Virus record (IMG/VR): IMGVR_UViG_3300037574_000131
Location: 1 to 30,192 of that record
Origin: a virus
Length of the DNA: 30,192 nucleotides
Direction: 5' to 3' (one strand)
Within the stretch, counting starts at the first letter, position 1, and the number at the start of each line of letters is the position of its first letter. Under the pieces are notes generated by a model. That model saw only the letters and a program-made list of their open reading frames with translations, was not told the DNA's origin and ran no database searches. Below are positions 8,499-13,562 of this stretch, piece after piece. The translations under genes were made by a program, and so were the position numbers.

Positions 8499-11400
8499 TT
8501 AGATTTGCTTGTATTCTGCTGTAACAATTACTGCACCAGTTGTAGGTGAAGCAGATGCGCCGCCATTCTGGATTGTACCAGTAATAGTTGCACCACCTGT
8601 TGTAGCATTTTCAAAACCTAAGTCTACAATATATAAACCGCCCTCAGAAAGGTCAGCCTCAGTTGTAGCCATTAGAGTATTTGTGCCGTCAGAAATAACT
8701 AACTCGTCTGCACCAACAAAAGCAGTAGTAACTTTAGCAGAAATACGACTTACGTAGTAAGACTTTCCTGCAATGTTAGCCATTGTGCCAATTGTGAATG
8801 AAGATGAACCGTTAGCAGTGAAAGCCACACGTCTAGTACCTGAAGAACCTGATTCTGACGCTTTCGTGTCAACATATCCTTTAGATGCTAGTGCATGATC
8901 CACGCCACTTGACATATCATAACCTGAAGGTGCTAGTACAAGACCAGAACCTTTTGGAGCCAATTTCAAATTGACGTTTGTAGTGTCACCAGCCATTGCT
9001 AGTTCTACACCGCCAATACCATTAGTTACTGTTAAGTAATCAACCGCATTTGCAACCGTTACAAAAGTAGCGATTTCATTGTCGTCTGCGTCCTTAATCT
9101 GAACGTTTCCGTCTGAAGCGCCGCCGTTACCACCTTTAACGATAACAGAACCTGAAGCGTTGCCGCCTACACCATTACCACCTTTAAGGATTAAGTCACC
9201 TGCCGCACTGCCAGAAGCATCACCACCACCTACTGTTAAGTCAGTATTAACTTCACCTTGAATTAAGGCTTCGCCTGATTGACCAACAATAAATACATCA
9301 CCGCCTGCTTGACCTTGTAGATACATATCTACAGCGCCAGAACCGGCTGCGTTTTTGGCAGTTAGTGTTACTTTACCAGTTGCATTAGTTAATGCAATAT
9401 ATTCACCAGAACCTGAAGTAACGCCAGAACCATCAATAGCCATAACGCCAGTTGAATTACGTAATTGACTTACGTATTCCATACCTAGTGCTGAACCATT
9501 TGAAGTCATAACTTTATTATCAGAACCAGCCGCTGTCAAACCAGTACCACCATTCGCAATTGGAAGAGTGCCAGTTATGTCAGCAGTTAAATCTACTTTC
9601 GCATAACCAAGAGAACCGTTTGAAGCCACTTTAAGTACAGTTGAATTAGAACCTTTAGCAAGTTCTGAAACTCCTGCTGAACCACTCATTATCATAAGTG
9701 AATTTGCACCATAACCTGAAGTATCAGTATGTGTACCACCCATGTTTAATGGTAGATCGTTTGCTAGAGTGATTTCATTAACAGTTAGATCCATGATATG
9801 TAAGTCTGCTTTAGCAGAACCTACAAGCAATTCCCAACCGTCAGTTGTTTCATTCCAGTTTAGAGCCGCATCGTCAGACGCACCACGTTCAACTAAAATA
9901 CCAGCGTCTTGTGTAGCCGCACCAGTATGATTAGAGTTAAGAACGATAATGTTATCTTCGATTGCAACTGTTTCAGATAGAGTAGTTGTTACAGAACCCG
10001 AAACTGTTAGATTACCAGTTACTGAAGCGTTTCCAGTTACTGATAGCGAACCAAGTGTCGAAGCACCTGCCGCTAGTGTGTTAGCACCAAAGTCACCAGC
10101 AACACCAAATGTTGCAGTAGTGTCTGAAAGTGTTAACTTTGTTGCTGTTGCATTGTCATCAATACCAGTTGAAGCAAATGTAGAGATTGTACCACCATCA
10201 ACAGAGTTACCAGAAATCTGGTTAGCCGCTAATGTTAGAGTACCCGCAGATACGTCTATTGTACGACCCGCGCCTACAGTAATATCATAACCACTCATTG
10301 TGTCAGCAGAACCAACCAAAGAAGCGTTAGAAATAGTACCAGCGTGAATCTTATCACCTGAAATTGAATCATTAACTAATGTCAATGTTTTGCCAGTCAT
10401 ATTAACATCTGCACCAGAAATAGCACCACCTGTTATAGTAGCGTTACCTGAGTTTAGATTAGTTGCTGTGACTGTTGTCATTGCCGCAGTACCGCCTGTT
10501 ATAGCCGCACTTGCAGTTGTCATTGTAGAGAATGTACCTGCAGCCGATGTATTAGCACCGATTGTAGTTCCATCAATAGCACCACCGTTGATATCAACAG
10601 TACCCGCTACTAAATTACCAGTTACATCACCAGTTACGTTACCAGTTACTGCACCAGTATGAACACCAGCACTGTTACCAGTTAAATTACCAGTTACATT
10701 ACCAGTTACATTACCTGTTACTGCACCAGTTACTGCGCCTGTGTGAACACCTGCACTGTTACCAGTTAAGTTACCAGTTACATTACCCGTGTGAACACCA
10801 GCAGAGTTACCAGTTAAGTTACCAGTTACATTACCCGTGTGAACACCAGCAGAGTTACCAGTTAAAGCACCAGTTACTGCACCAGTATGAACACCAGCAG
10901 AGTTACCAGTTAAGTTACCAGTTACATTACCAGTTACATTACCTGTTACTGCACCTGTGTGAACACCAGCAGAGTTACCTGTTAAGTTACCAGTTACATC
11001 ACCAGTTATATCACCAGTTACATCACCAGTTATATCACCTGTTACGTTACCAGTTACGTTACCAATAACTGCACCAGTATGTACACCAGCACTTGCACCT
11101 GTTAAATCACCAGTTACATCACCAGTTACATCACCAGTTAAATTACCTGTTACGTTACCAGTTACAGCACCAGTTAAGGCACCAATAAATGTACTTGCTT
11201 TAAGGTCAGTTAATGATGTACCTTCTTTGATTTCCCACTGAGTTCCAGTTTCGTTCCAAAGTAGAGTTGCATTATCACCTGTACCTCTATCAATTTCTAT
11301 ACCTGCTGTGCCTTCAGTAACGACTGCACCTGCTTCGCCTTTGTTAAGAACAATGACGTTATCTTCAATAGTAGTATTAGTTGTATCAATTGTAGTTAAA

Positions 11401-13277
11401 GCACCGTTAACTGTTAAGTTACCAGTTACTGTAACTGCGCCTGCAAATAAAGCCGACTCATCAGCACCTAAAGTTAGGACTGTTTGGTCTGCATTATCAT
11501 CAATACCAGTTGAAGTAAAGTTAGAATATGTACCACCGTCTAGTGCATCACCAGAAATCTGATTAGCCGCTAGAGTTAGAGTATCACCTGAAACGTTAAC
11601 TGAACCAGTATGAACACCAGCAGAGTTACCAGTTACATCACCAGTTACATCACCAGTTACATCACCAGTTAAGTTACCAGTTACATTACCTGTGTGAACA
11701 CCTGCACTATTACCAGTTAAGTTACCAGTTACATTACCAGTTACATTACCTGTTACTGCACCAGTGTGAACACCAGCAGAGTTACCAGTTAAAGCACCAG
11801 TTACGTTACCAGTTAAGTTACCAGTTACATTACCAGTTACTGTACCAGTTACATTACCATCTTTAAGTAAAACACTATCAACAGTAACACCAGCCGCGCC
11901 AGTTCTTTCACTGATTAAATCAGATTTAAGAGCCGTAGTTGCTGTCATTGTACCAGTTACTGCTACATCACCAGTGATATCCATTGGAGCCGAAACAGCA
12001 ATGTTTGTGCCCGAATAGTTATCTAGTGTATTTGCTTTCAGAGTACCTGAAGCCGTTATGTTTGTACCTGTTATAGCACCTGCAACAGTACCACCAATAG
12101 TAACGCCGTCAATAGCACCACCATTAATGTCAACTGAATTAGAAGCCATAGTTGTAAATGTACCTGCCGCTGAAGTTGTACTACCAATAGCAACATTATC
12201 AATGTTACCACTTGAAGCATCAATATCAACAACACCATCAATGTCTAGAGTCTTACCAGCCGCAATAGTAATATCAAATGCAGAGATAGTCTTGCCTGCA
12301 CCACCTGAAAGGTTTGCAGAGTCAATTGTACCACCTGAGATTTTATCACCAGAGATTTGGTTAGCCGCTAGAGTTAAAGTTCCACCTGAAATGTCAATTG
12401 AACCACCAGTGATTGCAACAGAACCTGAATTCTGTACAGCCATTGAGCCCAAACCTAGGTTTGAACGTGCAGTTGTTTTGCCACCGGCACTAGATGCGTC
12501 AACACCCAAGCCACCGTTTATTAGTGGTAAGGCACCTGCTATAGCGTTAGCATTAGTTAAATCTAAAGCACCGTAGGCAACGCCGCCAGAACCATTTGAT
12601 TTTAATACTTCACCAGTAGTAGTTGTACCTTTAATTGTAAGGTCATCTGAACCATCAACTTTTATATAAGTATCGTCAACATTAACATTAAACGTGTTAC
12701 CTGATTTAGATAAACCGCTACCTGCTGTAAGTTGTCCAGTACCTGTAAATTGTGTAAAAGCGATAGAAGTAGTACCAACAACAATAGTGCCGTTAGTAGA
12801 ACATACGAAGCCTTGGTCAGAGTTTATAGTACCTTCTTCAACAAAGAAAAAAGCGCCAACGAACTCATCAGCACCATCCATATCAGTAGCACGTGTCATT
12901 GCTGACGCGGCTCCAGTCCATAGATAGATACCATTTTGTGAACCAGTAGACTGGTTCTTAAGTAGAACACGGTCGCCCGCTGCCATAGTTACGCCATCAA
13001 TTGTCGCACCAGGTCCACTTATAGTTAATGTTGCTGTTGAAGCCGCACGAACTGAATCTTTTACATCCAATCCTGAAGCAACATTGTCAACATAACTTTT
13101 GTTTGCCGCATGGTTATCCGAGGTTGGAGTTGCAACATTCATATTGCCAAGTGTAGAACCGTCAGTTGTTACTTTGAAAAGGGAGTTACCCGAATCATAA
13201 ACAACACGACCGCCTGACTTACCAAACTGAACGTCTGCACCAATACCTTTGATACCAAAGTTTTTTATATCAGCCAT
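8499..13277 (-). CDS. Giant modular tail-fibre-like structural protein, 1592 aa
   Basis: The largest gene here. Residues 50-178 form a recurrent phage-fibre module (AANKSYVDN, IDGVTMAAGDRVLLKNQSTG, NGIYLW, TRATDMD, FVEEGT). There are two cassettes of the type IEDN(V/I)IVLN, GI(E/L)(I/V)(D/E)RG, WNET (about 615-690 and 1095-1160). Two blocks of a four-residue TGNV-type repeat broken by NSAGVHTG lie at about 473-557 and 698-889. A glycine-rich stretch with GGNGVGGNASG lies near 1360. The last 110 residues (from TRRVAFTANGSSSF) look like a folded terminal beta domain. It contains no catalytic motif that I recognise. It should be a long trimeric beta fibre outside the virion, probably for host contact. 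Start ATG 13277 has TAGGAG. Its transcript has a leader of about 215 nt with predicted hairpins and its own terminator. Conceptual translation is continuous despite the repeats. Confidence 0.85.
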   Translation of the reverse strand: MADIKNFGIKGIGADVQFGKSGGRVVYDSGNSLFKVTTDGSTLGNMNVATPTSDNHAANKSYVDNVASGLDVKDSVRAASTATLTISGPGATIDGVTMAAGDRVLLKNQSTGSQNGIYLWTGAASAMTRATDMDGADEFVGAFFFVEEGTINSDQGFVCSTNGTIVVGTTSIAFTQFTGTGQLTAGSGLSKSGNTFNVNVDDTYIKVDGSDDLTIKGTTTTGEVLKSNGSGGVAYGALDLTNANAIAGALPLINGGLGVDASSAGGKTTARSNLGLGSMAVQNSGSVAITGGSIDISGGTLTLAANQISGDKISGGTIDSANLSGGAGKTISAFDITIAAGKTLDIDGVVDIDASSGNIDNVAIGSTTSAAGTFTTMASNSVDINGGAIDGVTIGGTVAGAITGTNITASGTLKANTLDNYSGTNIAVSAPMDITGDVAVTGTMTATTALKSDLISERTGAAGVTVDSVLLKDGNVTGTVTGNVTGNLTGNVTGALTGNSAGVHTGAVTGNVTGNVTGNLTGNSAGVHTGNVTGNLTGDVTGDVTGDVTGNSAGVHTGSVNVSGDTLTLAANQISGDALDGGTYSNFTSTGIDDNADQTVLTLGADESALFAGAVTVTGNLTVNGALTTIDTTNTTIEDNVIVLNKGEAGAVVTEGTAGIEIDRGTGDNATLLWNETGTQWEIKEGTSLTDLKASTFIGALTGAVTGNVTGNLTGDVTGDVTGDLTGASAGVHTGAVIGNVTGNVTGDITGDVTGDITGDVTGNLTGNSAGVHTGAVTGNVTGNVTGNLTGNSAGVHTGAVTGALTGNSAGVHTGNVTGNLTGNSAGVHTGNVTGNLTGNSAGVHTGAVTGAVTGNVTGNVTGNLTGNSAGVHTGAVTGNVTGDVTGNLVAGTVDINGGAIDGTTIGANTSAAGTFSTMTTASAAITGGTAAMTTVTATNLNSGNATITGGAISGADVNMTGKTLTLVNDSISGDKIHAGTISNASLVGSADTMSGYDITVGAGRTIDVSAGTLTLAANQISGNSVDGGTISTFASTGIDDNATATKLTLSDTTATFGVAGDFGANTLAAGASTLGSLSVTGNASVTGNLTVSGSVTTTLSETVAIEDNIIVLNSNHTGAATQDAGILVERGASDDAALNWNETTDGWELLVGSAKADLHIMDLTVNEITLANDLPLNMGGTHTDTSGYGANSLMIMSGSAGVSELAKGSNSTVLKVASNGSLGYAKVDLTADITGTLPIANGGTGLTAAGSDNKVMTSNGSALGMEYVSQLRNSTGVMAIDGSGVTSGSGEYIALTNATGKVTLTAKNAAGSGAVDMYLQGQAGGDVFIVGQSGEALIQGEVNTDLTVGGGDASGSAAGDLILKGGNGVGGNASGSVIVKGGNGGASDGNVQIKDADDNEIATFVTVANAVDYLTVTNGIGGVELAMAGDTTNVNLKLAPKGSGLVLAPSGYDMSSGVDHALASKGYVDTKASESGSSGTRRVAFTANGSSSFTIGTMANIAGKSYYVSRISAKVTTAFVGADELVISDGTNTLMATTEADLSEGGLYIVDLGFENATTGGATITGTIQNGGASASPTTGAVIVTAEYKQI
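10611..11184 (-). repeat. 12-bp-period tandem repeat encoding TGNV-type tetrapeptides
   Basis: A degenerate 12-nt unit (plus strand: GTTACCAGTTAC, GTTACATCACCA and similar) repeats in frame, encoding V-T-G-N, L-T-G-N or V-T-G-D. It is interrupted seven times by an (N/A)SAGVHTG phrase. The phase is kept throughout, so the coding frame is not disturbed. Confidence 0.9.
11605..11859 (-). repeat. Second block of the same 12-bp repeat in the 1592-aa gene
   Basis: The same tetrapeptide-coding unit as at 10611-11184, with three NSAGVHTG phrases. Near-identical stretches in both blocks make recombination between them possible. Confidence 0.88.
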
Positions 13278-13308
13278 TATATTATCTCCTATAAATAGCC
13301 ATTAAATA

Positions 13309-13492
13309 ATTATTCCATATATCATACACGGAATAATAAACATAGAATTACCTTAAAAAGGATTCTTTGTTTTGCTTAGTTTTTGATTTTTTATATATCT
13401 GGAAAGAATCTCAGATATACTGACCGGAAGAATCTCAGTCATTTGATTGGTCGGAAGATATCTCAACCATCGCAAGTCTTTATCTGACTTAC
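13309..13492 (-). promoter_or_regulatory. Hairpin-array 5' leader of the 1592-aa gene
   Basis: The gap 13278-13590 holds this leader, its promoter and the 84-aa gene terminator. In the minus-strand transcript the leader can form six hairpins. Stems: 13474-13478/13486-13490; 13445-13451/13466-13471 (one bulge); 13419-13423/13435-13439; 13394-13401/13412-13419 (8 bp); 13344-13354/13358-13366 (9 bp with a two-base bulge); and 13309-13316/13330-13337 (8 bp). Hairpins two to four share TGAGATTCTTCC-like sequence across loop and stem edge, while their stems differ. The last hairpin ends 31 nt before the start codon. The folds were found by eye; energies were not computed. Confidence 0.6.
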
Positions 13493-13496
13493 AATA

Positions 13497-13505
13497 GTAT
13501 TTATG
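13497..13505 (-). promoter_or_regulatory. Late promoter of the 1592-aa gene
   Basis: CATAAATAC on the minus strand, followed by TATTGTAAG. It is 220 nt upstream of the ATG at 13277, the longest promoter-to-start distance in the window. Confidence 0.68.
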
Positions 13506-13536: not shown

Positions 13537-13562
13537 AAAAAACCCCTCGTAAAGAGGGGTTT
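13537..13562 (-). terminator. Rho-independent terminator after the 84-aa gene
   Basis: A stem of AACCCCTC with GAGGGGTT (13541-13548/13554-13561) around loop GTAAA, followed on the minus strand by a run of T's (complement of 13537-13542). It separates the 84-aa gene from the promoter of the 1592-aa gene. Confidence 0.85.

Follow-up and report, generated by a model that had tools for sequence, protein, structure and literature searches.

The leader ahead of the longest tail-fibre gene of a giant marine phage is, on comparative sequence evidence, a real and gene-specific cis-acting RNA element of the late fibre mRNA, with a conserved string of hairpins; the fit of the first motif loop to the gene's own ribosome-binding site suggests an RNA switch setting the amount of fibre. 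Regulatory RNA in the late structural genes of T4-type phages is, to our knowledge, little described. With a leader that is supported by covariation, confined to one gene and shared by many marine phage contigs, translational control of a tail fibre gains a concrete test case, and the RNA motif can be modelled and sought elsewhere.

Architecture of the leader and its relatives

The whole stretch of DNA analysed here, referred to as the window, comprises 30,192 nt of the IMG/VR record IMGVR_UViG_3300037574_000131, and the leader is read on its minus strand. The closest matches of the major capsid protein come from jumbo T4-like phages, for example Sinorhizobium phage Phosso, Vibrio phage 2.275.O and PA5oct. 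Positions 13492-13278 form, as originally described, a 215-nt leader ahead of a 1592-aa fibre gene, running from the late promoter to the start codon at 13277 (Table 1). From the late promoter the mRNA is taken to start at 13492, where the stem of HP1 begins. The fibre protein contains numerous GNVTGNLTGDVTGNSAGVHTG-like repeats, and fibre-like genes of many other phage contigs share its N-terminal 46 residues.

Table 1 Features of the fibre leader and its surroundings in the window
Feature	Positions	Strand	Basis
Terminator-like hairpin and T run, putative end of the upstream transcript	13537..13560 (about)	-	Sequence
T4-type late promoter CATAAATA	13498..13505	-	TATAAATA-like site conserved in position among relatives
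HP1, 5'-terminal hairpin at the inferred mRNA start	13472..13492	-	Fold; relatives; other late leaders
HP2, first motif hairpin	13445..13471	-	Stem and loop forms in group A; covariation
UAUCUUC in the HP2 loop, complement of the SD region	13454..13460	-	Complement scan; energies; covariation
HP3, second motif hairpin	13421..13441	-	Fold; covariation; group A listing
HP4, third motif hairpin	13393..13420	-	Fold; covariation; group A listing
A-rich unpaired spacer	13373..13392	-	Fold and relatives
HP5, predicted in the window, not conserved	13338..13372	-	Stretch lost or substituted in most relatives
HP6, last conserved hairpin, about 20 nt 5' of the SD	13311..13335	-	Pairing kept through G-U and double changes
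SD region GGAGAUA	13283..13289	-	Sequence; unpaired in nested group A folds
1592-aa fibre gene downstream of the leader	8499..13277	-	phrog_2647 and tail fibre matches

Relatives were gathered with the first 199 residues of the fibre protein as query. Full-length orthologues show 83-92% identity in group A and about 75% in group B, and two further scans supplied group C, composed of L136 and L137 (62% and 58% to the window) together with L149/L150 (70% to L137). Every leader of groups A and B, and most of those of group C, has a TATAAATA-like promoter site in the corresponding position; in L149 it reads GTAAATA. As to a transcript start downstream of the hairpins, no ATAAATA occurs between them and the gene; in group A, TATAAAAA, with one mismatch, is found 3' of HP4.

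The leader folds far better than dinucleotide-shuffled sequence, as the original prediction requires (MFE -57.0 kcal/mol against -36.4 +/- 4.0 in 200 shuffles, z = -5.14, 0/200 as good). The 16 distinct group A leaders, window included, give fold z values of -4.2 to -5.8 (60 shuffles each), while those of group B are mixed (-0.9 to -4.2). The six hairpins proposed at the outset stand in part: HP1-HP4 and HP6 are conserved in relatives, and HP5 is deleted or replaced in most. 'Six hairpins' hence overstates the case, because only five are conserved and HP1 is common to long late leaders in these phages. The 16 group A leaders keep the 5'-terminal hairpin, the three tandem motif hairpins and the last hairpin, and the motif hairpins stand at constant spacing in 16/16; the hairpin listing asked for stem pairs, and the plain leader sequences served as the unfiltered check. 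Group B keeps one motif hairpin. Both the stem sequence and the loop of HP1 vary among relatives, and the pairing of HP6 is preserved via G-U and double changes.

Covariation of the motif hairpins

HP2, HP3 and HP4 carry TGAGATATCTTCC, TGAGATTCTTCC and TGAGATTCTTTCC, respectively, on stems that differ and yet all pair, and the comparison with relatives confirms this pattern of a shared motif on changing stems. An alignment of 17 distinct motif hairpins shows a stem of 6 bp enclosing a conserved loop side, with 102/102 cells paired, a percentage inflated because the gathering scan demanded pairing. Double changes are seen in 32 cells, counted with every sequence related by descent taken singly, so that cells are not events. 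Compensatory changes are thus abundant in related phages, and covariation reaches 0.90 against 0.21 in shuffled rows and at most 0.11 with slid partners. The bare 12-mer motif with 3 mismatches has 38 matches in the window against 25.7 expected, which is barely above chance, and the strength of the signal therefore lies in motif plus stem.

In group A the motif hairpins consist of a stem, a U-G wobble, a G-C pair, a bulged A, two pairs and a loop of 4-5 nt. One pair is a conserved U-G wobble in 14/17 hairpins, which favours RNA, since the corresponding bases of a DNA inverted repeat would be mismatched. The bulged A below the two-bp cap is kept in the aligned group A hairpins, and the cap fails in several group B ones. 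HP2 has four stem forms in group A and a loop identical in 15/16 leaders, whereas nine loop variants occur for HP3 and four for HP4.

Specificity to the fibre gene

A covariance-model search shows motif and stem to be specific for the fibre-gene leader. Among phage records, which reach 342 kb, the motif is found only there, barring one match in coding sequence and weak ones at chance level; the former, a second match in G006, was set aside as chance because it lies inside a coding frame. L030 has its own hairpin with a longer loop, which falls below the cut of the model. The possibility that the motif belongs to all late leaders was rejected, as it is found at the fibre leader only.

Throughout IMG/VR, every exact copy of TTGAGATATCTTCCGA with at least 3 further stem pairs is behind a late promoter, and these copies are situated before the fibre gene or at a contig edge (the copy in L317 was labelled 'other' solely through the reading of a closer ATG). 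The remaining copies have 0-1 further stem pairs. For the group B pattern, 80 of 117 matching stretches were examined and seven of them have at least 3 further pairs, two at the fibre gene and five without a late promoter. Two contigs of 31 and 185 kb (L371 and L423) carry the group B motif on a seven-bp stem (CACGCTG...CAGCGTG) without a late promoter.

The exact HP3 pattern gave no match in IMG/VR. No Rfam family was found in the window at gathering score, and a relaxed search of the leader gave scores far below gathering. Blastn of the leader against GenBank phages returned only weak matches near the gene start, and literature searches on known phage RNA motifs and jumbo-phage late leaders gave no match. 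Reading the leaders of Salicola phage SCTP-2 and PA5oct by eye revealed no motif.

Complementarity between the first motif loop and the SD

The fit between the HP2 loop and the SD region, missed by the original prediction, suggests an RNA-only route to translational control, for which HP2 is the best candidate in this leader. The best complement of the own SD lies at one fixed leader site in 24/25 leaders of groups A, B and C, which are not independent and amount to three groups. For groups A and B this site is the loop of the first motif hairpin, for group C it is GACCCUCCC, and L030 is the exception. The single HP2 loop change within group A adds a pair. Between groups A and B the loop and the SD have changed in a compensating fashion, each loop fitting the SD of its own group better than that of the other. 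The group A loop binds the A SD at -6.9 and the B SD at -4.5 kcal/mol, and the B27 loop binds the B SD at -9.4 and the A SD at -5.6 kcal/mol; the group C SD, however, is matched no worse by either loop, and such pyrimidine-rich loops fit partly by default because the B and C SDs still share an AGGAG core.

When aligned, the loop-SD helix has 97.5% of cells paired and a covariation of 0.225 against 0.067 shuffled, with double changes at two pairs that stem from about two events. Site position and covariation speak for SD sequestration, but the loop-SD energy of the window taken alone does not, being no better than in shuffled leaders (P = 0.66). The SD is predicted to be unpaired in nested group A folds. 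A consensus pairing of HP1 with the SD was set aside, since the whole-leader alignment misplaces HP1, the length of which varies.

In group C leaders (L136, L137 and L149) the hairpin is another one, with CCGAACGAA as its loop and stems that vary, and is followed by GAGGCAGACCCTCCC. The CUCCC of GAGGCAGACCCTCCC fits the SD GGGAG, and the element occurs once per record in L136 and L137.

Proposed mechanism and alternatives

We tentatively favour a reading in which pairing between the HP2 loop and the SD would restrain translation, behind a generic 5' stabilising hairpin. HP1, at the presumed 5' end of the mRNA, most likely guards against decay that depends on this end; a protective role is probable because a similar 5' hairpin opens the majority of the other long late leaders of these phages. 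The HP2 loop UAUCUUC most likely pairs with the SD region GGAGAUA of its own gene, judging from complementarity and compensating changes. This would form a long-range pseudoknot that lowers ribosome access as long as it is not opened, either by ribosomes or by a bound factor. HP3 and HP4, further copies of the fold, probably aid leader folding or bind the same factor. As a net effect, synthesis of a very long structural protein would be held down or timed.

SD sequestration has precedents in T4 genes e, soc, 49 and I-TevI, where the SD is masked in an RNA helix at the initiation region (PMC3014915). The proposed mechanism likewise sequesters the SD by pairing within the mRNA, but the pairing partner here would be the loop of a hairpin at the 5' end of a late transcript, some 170 nt before the SD.

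Loop-SD pairing explains neither why HP3 and HP4 are conserved nor the GAG side of the motif. The loops of these two hairpins fit the SD poorly, and the fact that they keep the fold without such a fit points to a shared binder or a role in folding. The main rival reading, plausible though less favoured, is that HP2-HP4 are tandem sites for an RNA-binding protein of phage or host, the SD complementarity being secondary; the binder could perhaps be the fibre protein itself, giving translational autoregulation. A protein operator would agree with the one bulged-A architecture shared by every group A motif hairpin, kept in HP3 and HP4 despite variable loops, and with the placement of the hairpins before one gene only. 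However, there is no known candidate protein, group C carries a different element, and in group B several hairpins lack an intact two-bp cap over the bulge, all of which speaks against this idea.

The coat-protein operator hairpin of MS2 consists of a stem, a bulged A, two base pairs and a small loop of 4 nt. The group A motif hairpins resemble it in this order of parts, and the HP3 loop is also 4 nt. The loop sequence is nevertheless different here, the cap is not kept in several group B hairpins, and the motif belongs to a dsDNA phage for which no coat-like protein is known.

In T4 itself, the leader pseudoknot of gene 32 and the hairpin operator of gene 43 are bound by the repressors gp32 and gp43, so that T4 offers precedents for protein operators as well as for SD masking (PMC3014915). 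These leaders, which belong to replication genes, resemble the present one in that the mRNA of a T4-type phage is structured ahead of its SD, with translational control proposed (PMC3014915), while here the gene is a late fibre gene and the leader has three tandem hairpins, a loop fitting the SD and no known binder.

Loop-SD control and a protein operator are not mutually exclusive. We regard it as unlikely that a dsDNA jumbo phage combines tandem bulged-A hairpins with an RBS lock in the first loop, so that a virion protein and the pseudoknot jointly time the fibre.

It is quite improbable that the hairpins act in mRNA stabilisation only, shielding the 5' end of a long mRNA without any role in translation. 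HP1 does lie at the presumed first nucleotide, as in the ompA-type 5' stabilising hairpin, other long late leaders also begin with hairpins, and such stems stabilise E. coli mRNA according to references given in PMC3997798. However, this accounts for HP1 alone; a simple clamp would not require a conserved loop, nor would it call for three copies at one gene.

A DNA-level element or chance, where the repeats bind protein as DNA or are functionless and RNA folding is incidental, would suit the near-chance frequency of the bare 12-mer in the window but is very improbable given the fold at z of -5, the strong covariation and the kept U-G wobble.

Other features of fibre and late leaders

A six-codon frame, AUG GCU AUU UAU AGG AGA UAA, overlies the SD (13282-13302, minus). 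It is kept in the group A leaders read (M-A-N/I/Y-Y-R-R-stop) and mostly absent in group B. A GCUAUU-like stretch immediately 5' of the SD (13291-13300) is present in groups A, B and most of group C.

The motif model finds no motif in the distant relatives L264-L306, which share the first 46 residues; by eye their leaders show other hairpins. Many of them (L269-L301) have GTAACGTT...AACGTTATCGATAACG, in which a middle arm could pair with either neighbour. The leader of L264 contains a 5' hairpin, a motif-like hairpin and then GGGAAATCTG...CAGATTTCCTTTTTT, a terminator-like stem inside the leader.
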